A DNA stretch of 31,491 nt from a virus. Where the stretch lies: IMG/VR virus record IMGVR_UViG_3300025879_000007, positions 1-31,491 of that record. One strand, given 5' to 3'. Positions 5,077-22,490 of this stretch are shown in pieces. The notes under the pieces were generated by a model. That model made no database searches, was not told the origin of the DNA, and saw only the letters and a program-made list of their open reading frames with translations. A program made the translations under genes and the position numbers. The stretch's first letter is position 1; each line of letters begins with the position of its first letter.

Positions 5077-7677
5077 TTAAGGACTACAAGGGCTTTGAGG
5101 GTCAAAGAATAGGTTTTGTCCTCCACCACTTATATTATTCCAATCGTAGAACACACCTGCTTCTGAACTTACATCACATGTAAACCCATAAATCTCACTA
5201 CCTCCACTTATGGTCGTTCCACTCATATATCTATTACCTGGATAAGTTCCCGTATTGAAATTACCCATTCTCATTTCAACAGCAACAGGTGCTGATGCTG
5301 GTGGGATTTCGTCATACCATCTTGGTAATAACATTCTCAAGTTCTCACCACCATAAGAGGTTTGACCCCACTCATCAATTTGGATATCACCAAACAATTG
5401 TTGTCTCATCTCCATTGAGTTAAAGAACCCTACAGGGGTTTTAACAGAATTGTAATCAATGTAGTTGGTCGTGTATCCCGATGCCCTTCCGTCAGCCTCA
5501 GAGATGTCTATTGGATTACCATATTTGTAGTCAAGGTAAGTTTCCAATGTATCCCAATCACTATCGTTTAATACTCGGTCATATACAATACTCTCAAGGA
5601 ATATAGCATCACCATCACTGAAATTAGTAATACTTGAACCATTGTTATACACTTGATATCCATAAGTGAATGTGTCTCTGGTGGTTCCCGTAGTTCCCGT
5701 CATTGACGACCAACTATAGTGGTTCATATAAGTGTTGTTGTGTTCGTGTATTGGTAATTCATCAGAGACAAAGTTTATCCTTTGTGTATATCTAATGGTA
5801 TCCGCAAAGTATCTGTTTCTGATATCGTAATAATCACTCGTCATATTTACACCCACAACACCTTGTGAGAATGAACTACCATTGTATGAGAATGAATACA
5901 TACCCGTTGATGATGCGTATGACCTCGTGTTAAACAATGATGAACTCGTTGATGATAATAAGTTGTGATTGATTACTGGTATGGTCTTGTTTGACGGGTT
6001 ATGGTATTTCATAATATGAACTGCCGTGTATCCCGTGTAGTCGTGTGATGTATCACCAGTGATACCAAGATACCTTCTGTCGGCTGTTGTTGCCGTATCA
6101 ATGAACTTGGCACCCTGTGCTCCGTTGGTCTGACCCGTATGAGCGTGTCCCGTAAATCCAGTGATGTTTGTTTCTAATGTCGGGTAAGTATTACCACCTA
6201 TAGTATTTGTTAAGTCATATACCCCCGTGTATAGAGGTGCTTTGTTATCAATACCCGTGATGTAATCTGTTCCACCTGAACTCAATACACTCATCGTAGC
6301 GTCGTCTTGGAAATCATACCAATGAACCATACCACTTGGTGGCTGTGGTCCCGATGGTGGAGGTGGTAATGATGGTGTAGGGGTCGGTGTAAGTGTCGGT
6401 GAAGGTGTGATAGTTGGACTCGGTGTTATACTCACTGAAGGGGTAATCGTTGGACTTGGTGTTGGTGAAGGTATTGGACCACAATCAGGTTTACCTTGTA
6501 ATCTTACAATAAACTCTGTATCACCACTCAAAGTGAACGATGTGATAATCTCCTCAAAACAACTATTGTTCTCAACCTCAACACCATCAACCTCAAGGAT
6601 TGCCAATGTCTCATTTTCACCTACTCTACTATCTCTGATATACACCTCAACCTCATCTCCACTGGTAAACCATCTTGAGAAATCATAATCTATTTCAGAT
6701 GTTCTAATACCAATCCACTCTGGATTTGATGGATAGTTGTAAGTTCCATTGACTACCATTCTCCATTCAATAACTGCTGTTGATGGTGTTTCACCAGTTA
6801 AGATACCATCAGAGGTGATGATATGGAAATCAGGGAAGCCAGGACAAGTGGTCTCGGCTGTAAGAGTGTAATACCAATCGGTCTTACCATCACCCGTAAA
6901 TACTACATTTGGATTTACATCACAAGTCGTGGCACTATAAGGTTCAGAACCATTTAACAATTCAGTGCTCCAATATGGACTTGAGTTAGCCAGACTCAAA
7001 ATCGTCCAATAGTGAGTTGTAGGGTCAGCCGTTAATGGGACATTGAACTTGTAATTCTTTGGATATTCCTCAGACCTATCAACAAACTCTGCTGAACTAA
7101 AGATGACCTTTCCTGGAGGACCCGACATCGGGAACTCACCAACTATAGTCAGCATACCATAAGAACCCGTGATATCAGGGGTATCAGATTTGGTAAGGTC
7201 AAGATATAGTTGAGGACCCATATAGTCATTCAACTCACAGACATCTAAGTAATCACTCACTCTCAAATCAAGGTTAAGGGTCACACCCGCTAACACGTCA
7301 TTGAACCTCTCCAAGAAAGGCTGAGCACTCACACCAAAATCAAAGTCGGCTAAATACATAAAGTCCTCATTCAACTTGAATACTGAAATGAGGTCTCTTG
7401 AGATTTGGGACATGTCTGAGATGATTGATGTTGCCCCGTCATTATCGTTGTTCAATCGGTCAGCAAAGAATATCTGTAATGAATACACACTACTACTCTC
7501 CTCATAGGTGATGTTCTGTGGAACAACAAAGAGTAACGGATATAAAGGTGCCGTATTCTTAACATCTTTACCAAACTCTACAAGGTTCCCAAAACCAAAC
7601 GAATTGAGTTCAGGGTGTTTCCTCTGAAACTCATTCAGTTTTTCTATTAGTTTCTTAAATGTAATATTTTGTTCCAT
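5077..7677 (-). CDS. tail terminator-like protein fused to Pro/Thr linker and lectin-like domain (866 aa)
   Basis: Residues 1-165 look like a tail terminator or completion protein of Bacteroidota phages (long amphipathic start, L-Q-I-F-F-A-D-R-L, L-N-L-D-L-R-V). Residues 165-395 are a beta-rich region with several Cys. Residues about 399-446 are a flexible linker of P-[ST]-P-[ST] units ending in a run of Pro. After it, G-M-V-H-W-Y-D-F-Q-D begins a LamG/concanavalin-like domain (about 450-720) that closes with Y-D-R-V-L-N-D-S-D. A further 145 residues form a C-terminal domain. Tail terminators are normally around 150-200 aa, so this is a fusion that would expose a binding module at the tail. 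The start overlaps the chaperone fusion stop by 1 bp (TAATG). The terminator assignment is moderate; the linker plus lectin architecture is clear. Confidence 0.72.
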   Translation of the reverse strand: MEQNITFKKLIEKLNEFQRKHPELNSFGFGNLVEFGKDVKNTAPLYPLLFVVPQNITYEESSSVYSLQIFFADRLNNDNDGATSIISDMSQISRDLISVFKLNEDFMYLADFDFGVSAQPFLERFNDVLAGVTLNLDLRVSDYLDVCELNDYMGPQLYLDLTKSDTPDITGSYGMLTIVGEFPMSGPPGKVIFSSAEFVDRSEEYPKNYKFNVPLTADPTTHYWTILSLANSSPYWSTELLNGSEPYSATTCDVNPNVVFTGDGKTDWYYTLTAETTCPGFPDFHIITSDGILTGETPSTAVIEWRMVVNGTYNYPSNPEWIGIRTSEIDYDFSRWFTSGDEVEVYIRDSRVGENETLAILEVDGVEVENNSCFEEIITSFTLSGDTEFIVRLQGKPDCGPIPSPTPSPTITPSVSITPSPTITPSPTLTPTPTPSLPPPPSGPQPPSGMVHWYDFQDDATMSVLSSGGTDYITGIDNKAPLYTGVYDLTNTIGGNTYPTLETNITGFTGHAHTGQTNGAQGAKFIDTATTADRRYLGITGDTSHDYTGYTAVHIMKYHNPSNKTIPVINHNLLSSTSSSLFNTRSYASSTGMYSFSYNGSSFSQGVVGVNMTSDYYDIRNRYFADTIRYTQRINFVSDELPIHEHNNTYMNHYSWSSMTGTTGTTRDTFTYGYQVYNNGSSITNFSDGDAIFLESIVYDRVLNDSDWDTLETYLDYKYGNPIDISEADGRASGYTTNYIDYNSVKTPVGFFNSMEMRQQLFGDIQIDEWGQTSYGGENLRMLLPRWYDEIPPASAPVAVEMRMGNFNTGTYPGNRYMSGTTISGGSEIYGFTCDVSSEAGVFYDWNNISGGGQNLFFDPQSPCSP
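6338..6480. repeat. Pro/Thr linker-coding repeat
   Basis: About 140 bp of GGTGT/GGAGG-like repeats code residues 399-446 of the 866-aa tail protein on the minus strand. Confidence 0.75.
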
Positions 7678-8476: not shown

Positions 8477-9645
8477 ACTATAATGTATTTTCCTCTTGTA
8501 ATTAGATTATCTAAGAATTGTAATACCACATACCTTAACGCATCTATTGCGTGGTCATCTCCGATGGGTATGTTGGTGATGTTACCACTCCTATCTTTCT
8601 TAAACTTGTAATTGTTCCATTCCCTTATCAGGTTCTCACTGGTCTCGTTTATCATAATATTAAACGATTTCATTTTCTGTATCCCGTATAGGATACTACC
8701 CGCACCTTTCTTAACACCTATAACACTCAGACCTTCCCTGTTTAACTCTTGTATAGATTTGGGTTCACTACTATCTGCTACGACCACACTCTCTCTTGTA
8801 ATTCCCTTCTCCTTGAGTAAGAATGCTAAGTCCTGATTGGTTAGACCTTTTTCATATAATACCTCCTCACAATAGAGATTATTACCCTCTACGGTCACCT
8901 TGATGACGGCTGTAGGGTCTGAACTATAACCATAGTCAATCCCGTAGTATACCTGTTTGGTTTCTGTTGTATTCCCTGAGTATGTTTGGACCTCCCTAAA
9001 GATTTTCTCTCGGGGTTCAACAATCTTTCCTTCTGAATAAATCTCATAAAGGTCAGGGTTTGTGAGTTTCAAGTCACTAATGGCTTTCCTTGTTCTATCA
9101 TCTAAAAAACTATTTTGTCTCCAATTTGATATGAGTAATTTAGCATCCTCTCTCTGTTCGTATTTTAATATCCAATGGTCAGGGGTAAGTTCAGGGTTAT
9201 ACGGACACAATACCCAATCTGATAAACGGATATTGAGTTGCTCAAAGGGGTCAATGTCCACAGAGTTAATCTCGTCCACTAAGGCAATATCTGATTTCAT
9301 ACCCTTTAATCTACTGGTGGTATCGTCCATACCGATGAACCTGATGACTGAACCGTTGGGGAATGTGTAGACATTATCTACCTTATTGAATGTTCCCCAA
9401 TCCCATATTTCCATCGTATTCATTATCTCCTTGAAATCTACGAGGATTGTATTCTTTAATGATACTTGGGTGGCTCTGGCAATGGTGGCGGATATCCCTG
9501 CTCGTTTGAGACATTCTATTACGATGTATTGTATTGACGCTACGGTCTTACCTGAACGTGTTGACCCTCTTAGAAAGATATATCTGTTCCCTTCTTTGAT
9601 TGCGTCATCAATATCAACAAATACCTCAGTTGCCTGTATTCTCAT
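8473..9645 (-). CDS. terL: terminase large subunit
   Basis: This is the ATPase/nuclease motor that packages DNA into the prohead and cuts it. The Walker A motif G-S-T-R-S-G-K-T is at residues 27-34 and Walker B I-A-L-V-D-E at about 120-125. The RNase H-like nuclease begins at Y-Y-G-I-D-Y-G (catalytic Asp about 237). It continues with V-V-V-A-D-S-S near 293 and ends with D-D-H-A-I-D-A-L-R-Y, which supplies the last acidic residue. The length of 390 aa is normal for the PBSX-like terminase branch. It overlaps the methyltransferase upstream and the chaperone downstream by 4 bp each. All key motifs are intact. Confidence 0.95.
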   Translation of the reverse strand: MRIQATEVFVDIDDAIKEGNRYIFLRGSTRSGKTVASIQYIVIECLKRAGISATIARATQVSLKNTILVDFKEIMNTMEIWDWGTFNKVDNVYTFPNGSVIRFIGMDDTTSRLKGMKSDIALVDEINSVDIDPFEQLNIRLSDWVLCPYNPELTPDHWILKYEQREDAKLLISNWRQNSFLDDRTRKAISDLKLTNPDLYEIYSEGKIVEPREKIFREVQTYSGNTTETKQVYYGIDYGYSSDPTAVIKVTVEGNNLYCEEVLYEKGLTNQDLAFLLKEKGITRESVVVADSSEPKSIQELNREGLSVIGVKKGAGSILYGIQKMKSFNIMINETSENLIREWNNYKFKKDRSGNITNIPIGDDHAIDALRYVVLQFLDNLITRGKYIIV

Positions 9646-10601
9646 ATATCAAGTTTGGTTTGGTTCTCTGTATGAGCCTCAATTCGTTTTACCGCAATAT
9701 CCATATACTCCTCACTCATCTCCACACCTACAAAACTGAACCCATTATTCAATGCTGATATACCAGTGGTTCCCGTTCCCATAAAAGGGTCAAGGACAAT
9801 ACCACCTTTGGGTGTAATCATATTCACGAGGTAATCCATCAGTTTGATTGGTTTGATAGTTGGGTGGGTATTCTTATCCAATCCTTTTGTTTTCTCTTTC
9901 TTGGAGGGTTTGGCTACATAGAAATATCTTGATGTATTGTCTGTATGTTGGTCAAGGTTTTCTGCTGCCTCCTCACTCAATAGGACATTAGCGGGAAATC
10001 TACCTTCTTGATTATATTCTTTATGTGATGGGTCTGTATAATCGTGGGCTTGTTTCAATATCCAATCCTCATTGACTGACTTTCTTACTCTCGGTCTATC
10101 AAAATCAATCTTATCCATTTCCTCTGATTGATAAGGTATTCTACTCTCATCTACATTGATACCACCTGTTCCCCATTTGAGGACATTATCAACAATGGTC
10201 TTTTCTGATAGGGGTTTGCGTGCTAAGACAATCGGTTCGTGTGCTGGTTTGAGTGCCGTTCCCCAACCATTGTATTCAACAACCTTTTTCCCGATGTTAT
10301 GGGATTTCGGAAATCCGGACCCGTATATCCACATCAGTTGGTCTCTAATCTCAAACCCTGCGTCCTCAATATTCACAGCCATTCTGTGATAGGTTCTACT
10401 ACTGGCAAAAGATAAAAGGTGTCCTCCTGGCTTTAACACCCTCAAACACTCTTTCCATATCTCTGTTGAGGGGACATCATAGTCCCATTTTTCTGATTGA
10501 AACGATATACCATAAGGTGGGTCTGTTGTTATACTATCTATGGAGTTGTCCTCCATTTGTTTGAGTGCTTCAAGACACTCACTTAATATCAATTGTTTCA
10601 T
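9642..10601 (-). CDS. DNA methyltransferase, N4-cytosine/N6-adenine beta class
   Basis: The catalytic motif D-P-P-Y-G is at residues 27-31 and the S-adenosylmethionine-binding motif D-P-F-M-G-T-G-T-T-G at about 271-280. The catalytic motif therefore precedes the cofactor motif, as in beta-class enzymes that methylate N6 of adenine or N4 of cytosine. H-P-T-I-K-P shortly before the cofactor motif is also typical. The variable middle (about 130-220) would hold target recognition. No restriction endonuclease is adjacent, so this is an orphan enzyme, plausibly protecting phage DNA from host restriction or marking it for packaging. It lies between TerS and TerL, overlapping TerL by 4 bp. The target sequence cannot be read from the gene. 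Confidence 0.93.
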   Translation of the reverse strand: MKQLILSECLEALKQMEDNSIDSITTDPPYGISFQSEKWDYDVPSTEIWKECLRVLKPGGHLLSFASSRTYHRMAVNIEDAGFEIRDQLMWIYGSGFPKSHNIGKKVVEYNGWGTALKPAHEPIVLARKPLSEKTIVDNVLKWGTGGINVDESRIPYQSEEMDKIDFDRPRVRKSVNEDWILKQAHDYTDPSHKEYNQEGRFPANVLLSEEAAENLDQHTDNTSRYFYVAKPSKKEKTKGLDKNTHPTIKPIKLMDYLVNMITPKGGIVLDPFMGTGTTGISALNNGFSFVGVEMSEEYMDIAVKRIEAHTENQTKLDI

Positions 10602-10771: not shown

Positions 10772-11192
10772 CTTTTGGTTTTATTATATCTACCTTTATC
10801 TCGTTTATGTTGTTGATGGACTTACCATCTGTCTTTACGTCTATGAGTTGTTCAACATCTTTCCATTCACTATCACGATATACGTTAGCAATGTAGTATT
10901 TCATAAAAGTCGTGTTCAATCCTTTTGCTCCGTCCTCACCCCATCTCTCTACAGCCTTGGATACAAACCATTGTTCTGATAGGGACAATGCTTCATTTAT
11001 AGTGCTCATAAACTCCTCAGACCTTTCCATCAATCTGTAGAGTGTATTACGTGATATTTTGAGTTCAATAGCAAAGTCAAGTTTGTTCTTACCCTGTCTG
11101 CCGAGGTCTAAGATGACCTCTTTCCAATTGGGTGGGAATATACCTCTCTCCACTAATAATTCTACGTTATATGGTTTCCTTCCTGTTTTCAT
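10764..11192 (-). CDS. terS: terminase small subunit-like protein
   Basis: This protein of 142 aa carries a helix-turn-helix at about residues 36-58 (L-D-F-A-I-E-L-K-I-S-R-N-T-L-Y-R-L). It is followed by a helical segment with W-F-V-S-K-A-V-E-R-W and N-T-T-F-M-K-Y-Y-I-A-N-V-Y-R-D, resembling the oligomerisation part of small terminases. Small subunits recognise phage DNA and load the large subunit. Its position upstream of the large subunit, in the same operon, supports the call. The start overlaps the preceding gene by 4 bp. Confidence 0.75.
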   Translation of the reverse strand: MKTGRKPYNVELLVERGIFPPNWKEVILDLGRQGKNKLDFAIELKISRNTLYRLMERSEEFMSTINEALSLSEQWFVSKAVERWGEDGAKGLNTTFMKYYIANVYRDSEWKDVEQLIDVKTDGKSINNINEIKVDIIKPKDD

Positions 11193-12598: not shown

Positions 12599-13129
12599 AT
12601 GGACAATAGTTTTATCAAATTAAAAAGTTATGGGTTAGGTATAACGACCAACGCCATATACTCTTACATCATTGGGTGGGGAGATAAAGGAACCTACGCA
12701 ACCAATCAACAGATTGCTGATTTATTAGAGGTAAATGTTAGAACCGTAACAAGGTCGTTGAGGGAACTTAACGAGAAAGGTTACATCAAAATCATCAACC
12801 CCAACAAGAAAAGTCGTCAATTACATAAAGGACATAATGTCCCTCATCATGGACATAGTGACCATCAGTCAGGGACATCATGTCCATCAAGAGAGACAAA
12901 ATGTCCATCATTGGAGGACACAGTGTCCATCTATAAGATAGATAATATAGATAATAATATAGATGATAATATATCTAATAATATAGAAATCCAAAAAGAA
13001 AAAATTGAAATAAAAGATTATTGGGAATTAGTATCTGGTTTGATGTTACAAGAAAATATTAGTCAAGATGAAGCAGTAAAATTGATAAAAGAAAATTACG
13101 AAATCATTGAATATGAACAAACATTCTAA
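12599..13129 (+). CDS. replication initiator-like protein with winged helix (lambda O-like, 176 aa)
   Basis: Residues 16-70 form a winged helix-turn-helix of the HTH_36 kind (T-N-Q-Q-I-A-D-L-L-E-V-N-V-R-T-V-T-R-S-L-R-E-L-N-E-K-G-Y). Residues 76-110 are low-complexity and are encoded by a DNA repeat array. An Ile/Asn/Asp-rich stretch follows, then a helical C-terminal domain (D-Y-W-E-L-V-S-G-L-M-L) that could contact a host helicase loader. The architecture of DNA-binding head, origin repeats inside the gene, AT-rich segment and helical tail parallels lambda O. I choose the ATG at 12599 because the longer open frame would start upstream of the predicted transcript start. It leads the rightward operon. 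No helicase or polymerase gene is present, so host machinery would be recruited. Confidence 0.72.
   Translation: MDNSFIKLKSYGLGITTNAIYSYIIGWGDKGTYATNQQIADLLEVNVRTVTRSLRELNEKGYIKIINPNKKSRQLHKGHNVPHHGHSDHQSGTSCPSRETKCPSLEDTVSIYKIDNIDNNIDDNISNNIEIQKEKIEIKDYWELVSGLMLQENISQDEAVKLIKENYEIIEYEQTF
12830..12928. repeat. five iterons, candidate origin of replication
   Basis: Five 13-bp near-palindromes of the form GGACATnATGTCC start at 12830, 12851, 12873, 12894 and 12916. Copies 1 (GGACATAATGTCC) and 3 (GGACATCATGTCC) match the form fully, and copy 5 (GGACACAGTGTCC) is also self-complementary. Copies 2 and 4 are degenerate. Spacing alternates 21 and 22 bp, two helical turns, placing all sites on one DNA face. 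Because the spacing is not a multiple of three the copies are read in different codon frames, so selection is on the DNA and not on the protein. This is the layout of an initiator-bound origin. Confidence 0.72.
12931..13020. other. AT-rich segment beside iterons, candidate DNA unwinding element
   Basis: Directly after the iterons lies about 90 bp made almost wholly of A and T, with repeated ATAATATAGAT-like units encoding the Ile/Asn/Asp-rich stretch. In lambda the AT-rich unwinding region likewise follows the iterons inside gene O. The role is inferred from that parallel. Confidence 0.55.
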
Positions 13130-13411: not shown

Positions 13412-13489
13412 AAGGAGAGGGGGTTTTAGTATGACTTTGCTATTGTTATTCATTTCTTTTTTATTTTTACCCCTCTCCTTTTTCTTTAA
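13412..13489 (+). terminator. long-loop hairpin with U tract (terminator or structured RNA)
   Basis: An 11-bp perfect stem pairs AAGGAGAGGGG (13412-13422) with CCCCTCTCCTT (13470-13480), followed by a T-rich tract to 13489. The loop is 47 nt, far longer than in ordinary intrinsic terminators. It sits between the DUF3820-like gene and the zinc-finger genes. It could attenuate readthrough or shape a small RNA. Confidence 0.5.
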
Positions 13490-13495
13490 CTGATT

Positions 13496-13840
13496 ATGGG
13501 ACGCAAACATTTACCGCAGAAACGAATACTCTCTGACGAAGGCTGGTTATATTACTGTTCAATGTGTGAAGGGTATAAACCTGAGGAGGAGTTCAATAAA
13601 GATAGGAATAGACCCTTTGGTCGTTATTACATCTGTAAGGAGCACAGAAGGGAGAAATACAACGATAGGAACAACATTGACCCTGATGATGGTCTTGACC
13701 ATATTAAACTCGTATTCGTCAAGGATAGTGACGAGGAGGGTAAGGATAGATTTTTGGAGGGAATGGGTTATGATTTAACTGAGGATATTCATAAACAATT
13801 TATGAAACGAATACAACACAAGTATGGAAAAAGTTTGTAA
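13496..13840 (+). CDS. zinc-finger protein, endonuclease VII-like N-terminus (114 aa)
   Basis: Residues about 21-50 hold C-S-M-C-E-G-Y-K-P-E-E-E-F ... R-P-F-G-R-Y-Y-I-C-K-E-H, a four-ligand (CxxC...CxxH) zinc site of the kind seen in phage HNH/endonuclease VII-type proteins. The classical His-Asn-His catalytic core is not evident. The C-terminal half ends in F-L-E-G-M-G-Y-D-L ... H-K-Q-F-M-K-R-I-Q-H-K-Y-G, which is repeated in the next gene. Overlap with that gene is 17 bp. DNA binding or nuclease activity is possible, but function is not established. Confidence 0.68.
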   Translation: MGRKHLPQKRILSDEGWLYYCSMCEGYKPEEEFNKDRNRPFGRYYICKEHRREKYNDRNNIDPDDGLDHIKLVFVKDSDEEGKDRFLEGMGYDLTEDIHKQFMKRIQHKYGKSL

Positions 13841-14093
13841 CTGCTGCGGAATAGAAAAACCCTTGAGTGAGTATCACAATAGGTCAGTAGCCCCTGATGG
13901 GAAAGATACTCAATGTAGAGTATGTCGTAAGAAATATCTACGCAGTCCTTCAACTTTGGAACTATCTGATGATAAAGTAAGGATACCAGCCGAACAAGTG
14001 CTTACCGCTCTTGGTTATGAACTCTACAACGAGGACAATCCAGTCCATGAGCAATTTATCCAAAGGATTGCTACAAAATATAATTTCAAGTAA
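13824..14093 (+). CDS. zinc-finger protein, paralogue of preceding gene (89 aa)
   Basis: The N-terminus C-N-C-C-G-I-E-K-P-L-S-E-Y then D-G-K-D-T-Q-C-R-V-C-R forms a CxxC...CxxC zinc ribbon matching the first protein in spacing (K-P-x-x-E, then a basic residue and G, then C-x-x-[CH]). The C-terminus L-G-Y-E-L ... H-E-Q-F-I-Q-R-I-A-T-K-Y also matches. The gene is therefore a tandem duplicate that has diverged and lost about 25 residues. It is the last rightward gene and ends 27 bp from a convergent leftward gene. Confidence 0.68.
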   Translation: MEKVCNCCGIEKPLSEYHNRSVAPDGKDTQCRVCRKKYLRSPSTLELSDDKVRIPAEQVLTALGYELYNEDNPVHEQFIQRIATKYNFK

Positions 14094-19828: not shown

Positions 19829-20989
19829 TTATCTCGGACATGAGCCGCAACTCAAGTAGGTATTTATCACGTTGTCCTCCACAGGATTTGACGATGGACC
19901 TACCACCTCAAAACAACCATCTATAACGGATGCTCTTACCACCTTACCAATAGCAATAAATGCGTTAGAACCAAATACCCTTACCTCTAACGGATTATCA
20001 CAATTGGAAACCTCATAGACATATTGATACCCCGATGGTGATGGTGTCGGAGTAAGTGTCGGCGTTGTCGTTGGTGTCGGAGCAATACTACAACTACCAA
20101 TCAAAGTGATTGTAGAATGACCTCCTCTACTCTCCACTGAACCAGCACACGCACAAATCCTTAAGATAGTTCCTGGTCCGAGTGATTGTTCTTGAGATTG
20201 TTGATTACAATCCAACCAAGCAATAGTATCTACATTGAACTCTGTATTGTTGTTAACATCATATTCCAAACAATTACAATTCGTTGGTGATGGAGTTATA
20301 CTCGGAGTGATACTCGGTGTTATAGATGGTGTAGGAGTGGGAGATAGAGTTATAGATGGGGTAAGTGAGGGAGTGGGTGTTGGAGTGGGTGATGGTAAGG
20401 CGTCTGATGTCGGTGTGGGTGTTGGTGTGATACTTTCACAATTATCACCAACATATTCTATGCTGTATGAATATAAACCTTCACCTTCTCTTGGATAAGC
20501 AACCCCATTGTATACATCAAAATCAAATGAGGCACGACCAACAGCAATACTACCAATATCACTAACACCCCAATATAGAGGCTTCAATAGTGGATATGAA
20601 ACTCCAACACTTAAAAGTGTATAACCCTTCTCATTATTATCATAGAAAAGAAAAGTTCCACCTCCTGCGTTTCCTTGTCCCTGCCAACCAGTGAAGGTAT
20701 AACCCGATAGTTGAGTGTTTCTTGTGTAATTTCCAAAATCCCTATATCTGTCACCATCATAACCACCACCAAAATCGTTAAAATATACTGAACTCATTGA
20801 ACCACCACTGAAGGTATCCATATAGTATAATCTACCTATCTCAGAACCAGATTGTTTGATGACTATCTCTCTACTATAGTTAGCAGGAAAACAACCACCA
20901 TTCGGAACAACCTCATTACCATAAATCGGTCTATCATTACCAATAGGGTTATTTACAAAGTCGGTATTTCTAAATGGGACATTACTCAT
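19829..20989 (-). CDS. Pro/Thr-linked multidomain surface-display protein (386 aa)
   Basis: The N-terminus F-R-N-T-D-F-V-N ... D-R-P-I-Y-G-N-E-V-V matches that of the 309-aa protein downstream in coordinates but upstream in the operon, and is likely a virion docking segment. A beta domain (about 30-185) is followed by a first linker of Pro/Thr/Ser/Ile units (about 186-236), then a small Cys-rich domain (C-N-C-L-E-Y-D-V). A second linker (about 301-320) and a final Cys-containing domain (Y-E-V-S-N-C-D-N-P, ending S-C-G-S-C-P) follow. This beads-on-a-string form suits exposed binding domains on the capsid or tail. No enzyme motif is visible. Confidence 0.72.
   Translation of the reverse strand: MSNVPFRNTDFVNNPIGNDRPIYGNEVVPNGGCFPANYSREIVIKQSGSEIGRLYYMDTFSGGSMSSVYFNDFGGGYDGDRYRDFGNYTRNTQLSGYTFTGWQGQGNAGGGTFLFYDNNEKGYTLLSVGVSYPLLKPLYWGVSDIGSIAVGRASFDFDVYNGVAYPREGEGLYSYSIEYVGDNCESITPTPTPTSDALPSPTPTPTPSLTPSITLSPTPTPSITPSITPSITPSPTNCNCLEYDVNNNTEFNVDTIAWLDCNQQSQEQSLGPGTILRICACAGSVESRGGHSTITLIGSCSIAPTPTTTPTLTPTPSPSGYQYVYEVSNCDNPLEVRVFGSNAFIAIGKVVRASVIDGCFEVVGPSSNPVEDNVINTYLSCGSCPR
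20032..20089. repeat. Pro/Thr linker-coding repeat
   Basis: A degenerate GGTGTYGG-like 6-base repeat encodes a Pro/Thr/Ser linker on the minus strand. Similar tracts occur in three other display genes and could promote domain exchange. Confidence 0.75.
20283..20430. repeat. Pro/Thr/Ile linker-coding repeat
   Basis: About 148 bp of GGTGT/GGAGT-rich repeats encode P-T-P-T-P, P-S-I-T-P and similar units on the minus strand. It is the longest such tract here. On the plus strand it opens a spurious Gly/Val-rich frame. Confidence 0.8.
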
Positions 20990-21226: not shown

Positions 21227-22156
21227 TTACCAACTTGTATAGTTCCATTTATTTTTCAAGTAATCCTCAACCTTTGTTATATCACTTGAGTTCAACAATC
21301 TATCGTATATCAACAATTCACCAAATACAATATCTGTTCCCGTTCCAGCACCACCCGTAAATGGACCTGGTAAGTATAAATAATCTATATCTACCATATT
21401 GAATACATCACTGATGGCACTCGTGTATGCTACATCATTTAACTCGGCATCAAATTGTCCGTAAGGGGTATTTGGATACCCAATCTGGCTCCATGCTAAA
21501 CCTCGTGGGAACTTAGACCAAGTGGTATAGTTATCAAACTCAGCACCAGGATATTGAGTTCTAATAAAATCACTACCCCCGTAGTTGTAGTAATTCGTAG
21601 CCTTGGTCTGATTGTTAGTAATACCATACAAATACATCATACTCCTCTCTGTGCTAACACCTGTAGGGTCAAACTTAAAGGTCATAAACCAAGTATAACC
21701 TGATGTGAATGTAATACCCAAACTTTGAGTGAATAGATACTCTCCATTGGCTCTACTAAACACAGCCGATTTCTGACCGACATTATTGGATATTGTATCA
21801 GCAGTCAATATAGGTCTTTGAGATGAGTTAGGAGCGTTGATATCAAGACCATTACCACTCCTATCATACGCCGTTAAGATTTCATTACCACTCAACGATA
21901 CATAACTACTATTACTGAAATCATACCACGCAGATAGACCCGATATAGTTGATGGGTCAAATGGTGGTGTAGGTGATGGTGTAAGTGATGGTGTAGGAGC
22001 AGGTGTGCTCGTAGGAGTGACCGATGGAGTTGGTGTTGGGGTCACAGATGGAGTTGGAGATGGGGAAGCAGGAACAACCACCTCATCACCATAGATGGGG
22101 CGGTCAGGGTCACCAAACAAGTTGACGAACTTTGTATTACGATATTCTATCCCCAT
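21227..22156 (-). CDS. Pro/Thr-linked lectin-like surface-display protein (309 aa)
   Basis: The N-terminal Y-R-N-T-K-F-V-N ... D-R-P-I-Y-G-D-E-V-V docking segment is shared with the 386-aa protein. A Pro/Thr linker (about residues 29-65) leads to a LamG/concanavalin-like domain beginning I-S-G-L-S-A-W-Y-D-F-S and ending I-Y-D-R-L-L-N-S-S-D ... Y-L-K-N-K-W. That ending also matches the lectin-like part of the 866-aa tail protein (Y-D-R-V-L-N-D-S-D). Such domains usually bind glycans, so host-surface or matrix binding is plausible. There are no Cys pairs and no enzyme residues. Confidence 0.75.
   Translation of the reverse strand: MGIEYRNTKFVNLFGDPDRPIYGDEVVVPASPSPTPSVTPTPTPSVTPTSTPAPTPSLTPSPTPPFDPSTISGLSAWYDFSNSSYVSLSGNEILTAYDRSGNGLDINAPNSSQRPILTADTISNNVGQKSAVFSRANGEYLFTQSLGITFTSGYTWFMTFKFDPTGVSTERSMMYLYGITNNQTKATNYYNYGGSDFIRTQYPGAEFDNYTTWSKFPRGLAWSQIGYPNTPYGQFDAELNDVAYTSAISDVFNMVDIDYLYLPGPFTGGAGTGTDIVFGELLIYDRLLNSSDITKVEDYLKNKWNYTSW
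21961..22070. repeat. Pro/Thr linker-coding repeat
   Basis: About 110 bp of GGTGT/GGAGT-like repeats code the linker of the 309-aa display protein on the minus strand. Confidence 0.75.
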
Positions 22157-22169
22157 AAATTAGATAGAG

Positions 22170-22490
22170 TTAGGGTGCTGCTTCTAATACCAATAAGTCA
22201 CCATTCTCAGCCTGTAGAATATCACTATTCTCAGCCAAGATGAAATACTGAACTGCTGGTGTAGCCGATGGTGTTGGGGTAATTGTTGGTGTCGGAGTAA
22301 CTGATGCCGTTGGAGTTACCGATGCTGTTGGACTTGGTGTTGGAGATGGACCTGGTGCGGTTCCACTACCCTCACCCAAGAAAAACTGAGCAACCAATCT
22401 CGGTTCCTTCTTTTCACCCAAAGGCTTCAAGAGTTGACGATAATCAGGATTTACTTTTGGTCTATAATTTGGTCGTCTAAAGTTAAACAT
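22170..22490 (-). CDS. small Pro/Thr-linked display protein (106 aa)
   Basis: The first 45 residues are basic (F-R-R-P-N-Y-R-P-K-V-N-P-D-Y-R) and probably anchor to the virion. A Pro/Thr/Ala linker (about 47-80) follows, then a short end domain with the duplicated motif I-L-A-E-N-S-D-I-L-Q-A-E-N-G-D-L-L. The ending resembles short Leu/Glu/Asn-repeat tags seen at the end of uncultured phage display proteins. It begins after the terminator at 22508-22533, so its expression depends on readthrough. A decoration role is inferred. Confidence 0.65.
   Translation of the reverse strand: MFNFRRPNYRPKVNPDYRQLLKPLGEKKEPRLVAQFFLGEGSGTAPGPSPTPSPTASVTPTASVTPTPTITPTPSATPAVQYFILAENSDILQAENGDLLVLEAAP
22257..22358. 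repeat. Pro/Thr linker-coding repeat
   Basis: About 100 bp of GGTGT/GGAGT-like repeats, including GATGCYGTTGG units twice, code the linker of the 106-aa protein on the minus strand. Confidence 0.75.

Follow-up and report, generated by a model that had tools for sequence, protein, structure and literature searches.

The segment 12830–13020 of the phage genome analysed here is very probably its replication origin, set in the linker-coding part of the initiator gene in the manner of phage lambda and the RepA_N plasmids and working by the mechanism proposed below. Origins inside initiator genes have long been known. The window, the whole stretch of 31,491 bp under study, comprises a phage genome that is complete and circular and carries a 127-bp repeat at its ends. 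Nearly all of its genes lie on the minus strand, apart from one short plus-strand block whose first gene, 12599–13129, encodes the 176-aa initiator. GC skew was dropped as an origin marker, because it tracks gene orientation and is hence uninformative.

Within this gene, a palindrome scan located five copies of GGACAnnnTGTCC at 12830–12928. These iterons are, in order, GGACATAATGTCC (12830–12842), GGACATAGTGACC (12851–12863), GGACATCATGTCC (12873–12885), AGACAAAATGTCC (12894–12906) and GGACACAGTGTCC (12916–12928), spaced by 21, 22, 21 and 22 bp. Three of them are perfect in both 6-bp arms, and the imperfect palindromes 2 and 4 keep 4 of the 6 arm pairs. The arrangement announced by the original prediction, five palindromes every 21 or 22 bp in a winged-helix gene, was recovered. 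Counted from the ATG at 12599, the palindromes fall in codon phases 0, 0, 1, 1 and 2 and therefore encode no protein repeat; the same phases yield precisely the five peptides listed earlier in support of a spacing out of step with codons. The array reaches a score of 26, compared with at most 11 in all other windows of the genome, and when the initiator gene was shuffled over synonymous codons, only 2 of 20,000 trials reached it. Across the whole genome, a single further site lies within two mismatches of GGACAnnnTGTCC (867–879), and no second comparable array was found elsewhere.

Directly behind the iterons comes an A/T-rich tract (12929–13020), the proposed DNA-unwinding element. In a nearest-neighbour stability scan of the 31.5-kb genome, the least stable 60 bp start at 12931 and the least stable 80 bp at 12932, 3–4 bp past the last palindrome. 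The tract of about 90 bp that had been predicted to follow the array is indeed present; with 86% A+T, its description as almost pure A/T was slightly overstated.

The encoded protein consists of an N-terminal winged helix, a linker and a C-terminal helical hairpin, as delineated by HTH_36 and PHROG matches and by a structure model computed from an alignment of 38 initiators. The HTH_36 profile matches with an E-value of 1e-6 (29 bits, for a cut-off of 25), and the PHROG matches are to a DnaD-like helicase loader (phrog_186, 9e-11), a replication initiation protein (phrog_270, 2e-9) and an O-like protein (1e-7). The winged-helix DNA-binding domain covers residues 14–70 approximately (12638–12808, plus strand) and is modelled with a pLDDT mostly of 84–97 per block of ten residues, the confident part of the model starting near residue 10. 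Its recognition helix spans residues 47–60 (12737–12778, plus strand) and includes Arg48 (12740–12742) and Arg52 (12752–12754). Arg52 is invariant across the 38 aligned initiators; this invariance and the covariation with the iteron described below lead us to propose both arginines as candidate readers of the iterons. Residues 71–130 form a linker of low model confidence and are probably disordered. The palindromes encode residues 78–110 and the A/T tract residues 111–141, so that most of the origin-like DNA lies within the linker. At the C-terminus, a helical hairpin (residues 134–169; 12998–13105, plus strand; pLDDT about 72–94) is proposed to contact the helicase or a helicase loader.

Fold searches with Foldseek and VIA-align returned generic winged helices only (CRP, LexA, MarR and DnaD-N), including the DnaD-N structure 2v79 among the weak Foldseek matches (E 0.1); neither RepA_N nor lambda O structures were among the matches listed. 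The Pfam DnaD_N match of the initiator stays below the cut-off, and its C-terminal hairpin showed no match. Phage_rep_O is absent from the 21 Pfam families that match the initiator up to E 1, and so is RepA_N. Judged by Pfam family, the protein is neither a lambda O nor a RepA_N initiator, and is classed as a member of the HTH_36 initiator group.

We infer the following course of events, from the binding of the initiator and its stoichiometry as a dimer to melting, recruitment of the helicase and initiation itself. The initiator, probably dimeric, would occupy every 13-bp palindrome with two winged helices, one per half-site, and because the five sites lie two helical turns apart, the dimers would stack along one face of the DNA. 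The stacked complex would then strain and melt the adjoining A/T tract, and the C-terminal hairpin would recruit the host replicative helicase, either directly or via a host loader. Host proteins are invoked because none of the phage proteins scanned was recognisable as a helicase, primase or loader, although many of them lack any match.

L005, the nearest relative of this phage, is about 69–76% identical to it in DNA across much of the genome, and only about 40% identical in the initiator. The linker DNA of L005 carries a different palindrome, GGCTCAnnnTGAGCC, in four copies spaced by 21, 21 and 23 bp, a number equalled in none of 100 shuffles, and the 80 bp of lowest stability in the 21-kb L005 locus start at 13466, directly past its own array. 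The recognition helices read NVRTVTRS in the window phage and SLSSVKRS in L005: Arg48 is replaced by Ser and Arg52 is kept, alongside a change of the iteron from GGACA to GGCTCA. The expectation that the palindromes would persist in relatives is thus borne out for their place, their spacing and the A/T tract, and fails for their sequence, which changed together with the recognition helix. When the initiator itself served as the protein query, no relatives turned up at first in viral contigs or in named phages, and a profile built from the two initiators recovered L005 alone.

We also looked for pairs of GGACAnnnTGTCC spaced by 20–23 bp in 2.9 million viral contigs, using no protein information. 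The scan returned 100 loci, for a rough expectation from base counts of less than one, and the backward pattern ACAGGnnnCCTGT gave a single match. A winged helix is encoded upstream in the same frame for 63 of the 84 viral arrays lying in open reading frames (ORFs); among the other long ORFs on these contigs, the count is 4 of 1028. Phrog_270, annotated as replication initiation protein, matches 36 of 95 array-covering ORFs, and the PHROG scans label many of the ORFs as replication initiation or O-like proteins; several array genes are annotated merely as hypothetical or as transcriptional regulators. In the non-redundant set (n = 36), the array starts at a median of codon 105 and more than one codon phase is used in 25 genes. 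The intervals measure 21–23 bp in 85 of 94 cases, close to two DNA turns, a range partly imposed by the search. DNA past the array is less stable than DNA ahead of it in 36 of 44 array genes (p 3e-6). Genome contigs with such genes bear titles such as Pantoea, Geosporobacter, Ectobacillus and Opitutales bacterium, among others; matches to the palindrome pair in genome contigs are mostly non-initiators, with initiators at 9 of 84. For an origin embedded in the initiator gene and an array bound as DNA, as predicted, the testable parts hold: an initiator-family winged helix, a disordered linker, adjoining DNA of least stability, the same architecture in L005 and many similar initiator arrays.

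The palindrome GGACTnnnAGTCC, chosen as a control, was rejected in this role, as a winged helix precedes 25 of its 28 in-ORF arrays and it marks another iteron class. Further iterons built on the same plan are GTGAACnnnGTTCAC, GTAAAGnnnCTTTAC and TCCCT..AGGGA, and in named phages GGTCAnnnTGACC (mEp460) and GTATCAnnnTGATAC (a Staphylococcus phage). Hafnia phage yong2 has a GGACA iteron, and the E. coli phage mEp460_4F5 one of the GGTCA type. GGACA as a universal iteron was likewise discarded, since few of the winged-helix genes drawn by family from four groups of bacteria contain it. When winged-helix genes are chosen on family membership only, an array is seen in just about 5%, in a sample that includes transcription factors and chromosomal genes. 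Two side observations belong here. Prevotella-type genomes (L144, L147, L175, L188, L201 and L212) hold several chromosomal CGGACAnnnTGTCCG arrays each, at about 22 bp and apparently non-coding, at which no initiator was recognised. Two clusters, together ten GGACA-type palindromes, make up the largest array seen, which belongs to a 326-aa ORF of L115 (about 10872–11142); the initiator profile gives no match to this ORF.

The iteron goes with the recognition helix beyond the pair of phages described above. Among non-redundant GGACA genes (n = 45), position 52 is Arg in 45/45 and position 48 is Lys or Arg in 44/45; the two features occur together in 13 of 74 winged helices that lack GGACA and were drawn by family from four groups of bacteria (Fisher 1e-19 against GGACA genes), a comparison in which the helix-aligning profile, built largely from GGACA genes, may favour similar helices. 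In named homologues picked by protein similarity, residue 52 is Arg and residue 48 is Ser, Ile or Asn, and their palindromes are of the GGTCA, GTATCA and AGCTCA type. Scans for GGTCA and GGCTCA pairs were run after the prediction on residues 48 and 52 made from these homologues had been written down. Arg52 is present in 30/30 GGTCA and 2/2 GGCTCA genes, and residue 48 is non-basic in 21/30 and 2/2, respectively, compared with 1/44 GGACA genes (GGACA against GGTCA, p 1.7e-10), all counts being taken over related sequences. Only three phylogenetically independent pairs are well supported, of which about 1.8 are concordant and none discordant, so that this comparison is underpowered. In the GGACTnnnAGTCC class, Lys or Arg occupies position 48 in 21 of 22 genes. 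A strict code, in which every GGTCA iteron would accompany a non-basic residue 48, was rejected, since 9 of the 30 genes carry Lys or Arg.

From these alignments, the association of Lys/Arg48 with GGA rather than GGT or GGC iterons appears strong, not strict, and Arg52 may go with the GG shared by the half-sites. We give about an even chance to a broader proposal, in which winged-helix phage initiators across several host phyla would have one origin module in common. Its DNA word would be readable from the protein (Arg52 with GG, Lys/Arg48 with GGA as in GGACA and GGACT, non-basic 48 with GGT or GGC), its origin would lie in linker-coding DNA, and iteron and helix would change together.

Several known systems resemble parts of this arrangement. 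In lambda, four iterons within gene O are occupied by dimers of the O protein, and unwinding takes place in the A/T tract next to them (PMC7466680). The O genes of lambda and the Stx phages have the same layout as the window initiator gene, with an N-terminal DNA-binding part, mid-gene iterons at 20–24 bp and an A/T tract past them (PMC7466680); their iterons are annotated at codons 116–144 approximately. However, the lambda iteron is a different and longer palindrome, the window initiator lacks Phage_rep_O and the window phage lacks a recognisable P-like loader. The forecast of a lambda-ori-like arrangement with a different sequence is supported, with iterons and A/T tract inside the initiator gene and an iteron unlike that of lambda. 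Lambda O was found neither by the initiator profile nor by the palindrome detector; as the latter does not call lambda iterons, it defines a narrower class.

The RepA_N plasmid pSK41 carries four Rep boxes in the centre of rep, where they encode a dispensable linker between N-terminal DNA-binding and C-terminal domains, both of them DnaD-like (PMC5703833). As in the window phage, the iterons lie in linker-coding DNA within the initiator gene. The window differs in being a phage and not a plasmid, in having no RepA_N Pfam match, in its iteron and in its much shorter C-terminal part (about 45 aa). In protein family, the likeness is to the HTH_36, DnaD-like or O-like phage initiators (PHROG 186, 270, 428 and 678), with profile matches of 9e-11 to 1e-7 over winged helix and linker and with relatives that have palindromic iterons at the same place; the annotations of these families, by contrast, name no iteron.

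The array could instead be mainly an intragenic operator, at which the bound protein would block RNA polymerase and limit its own expression while replication starts elsewhere. This winged-helix fold is typical of repressors, and the regulatory site of the SsoII/Ecl18kI methyltransferases, AGGACAAATTGTCCT, is a palindrome identical to the window iteron and is occupied by two proteins per site via their N-terminal DNA-binding region (PMC3978073). That site, however, is a single transcription-control operator without an array and is bound by another kind of protein, whereas five phased sites with adjoining least stable DNA, in the window phage as in L005, fit an origin better. The protein families are those of initiators and the genome has no second such array, and we hold a mainly regulatory role to be unlikely; autoregulation could coexist with origin function.

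A folded mRNA controlling translation or termination appears less probable still. None of 200 shuffled sequences is predicted to fold as well as the array transcript (12825–12935; z −4.7), but repeated palindromes fold by construction, which probably makes this fold their by-product, and a lone 13-mer leaves a loop of 1–3 nt at most. The near-two-turn spacing of most arrays, partly search-imposed as it is, and the link to DNA-reading residues point to DNA. Phased iterons bound by winged-helix proteins serve some partition systems too, and the array might on this ground be a centromere for plasmid-like maintenance. Such a role is the most improbable of all: no partition ATPase or GTPase is among the recognised phage proteins, the protein families are again those of initiators, and the A/T tract would be left unexplained. 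An origin read as DNA by its own initiator is the interpretation we retain.

Other parts of the genome deserve mention in their own right. Behind the initiator, two small tandem genes (13496–13840 and 13824–14093) match endonuclease VII and Lar-like restriction-alleviation families, the second more clearly. Between 14744 and 17475, about eight related repeats of 40–65 bp each precede a small minus-strand gene and have the appearance of an early promoter with its leader, present in several copies. Several contain the Bacteroidota-type promoter pattern TTTG...TAnnTTTG, exact matches to which number nine on the minus strand and three on the plus strand; these promoter-like repeats suggest a Bacteroidota host. 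Structural-region proteins encoded at 5080–7677, 19829–20989, 21227–22156 and 22170–22490 have long Thr/Pro/Ser-rich (TPTPSPT) stretches in common, apparently a reused linker module. A gene for a DNA N4/N6 methyltransferase (9642–10601) lies beside that of the large terminase.

In the literature covered, mostly non-subscription journals so that earlier descriptions are possible, no GGACAnnnTGTCC-type iteron is described for phage origins, and the six common palindrome forms appear solely in papers on the SsoII/Ecl18kI methyltransferases. What looks new is an iteron family that recurs across phyla and goes with two residues of the recognition helix; the intragenic arrangement of the origin is itself known.

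To our knowledge, the origins of most phages are unknown. As the palindrome-pair scan leads mostly to initiator genes, it can be used to mark origins where phage genomes lack annotation, and large numbers of such origins, if the broader proposal is true, could be called from sequence. An iteron that follows the residues of the recognition helix would allow the rise of new origins, and their incompatibility with old ones, to be tested directly and cheaply. It may also give a possible reason for the long disordered linkers of these initiators, where an origin can sit without harm to the protein.
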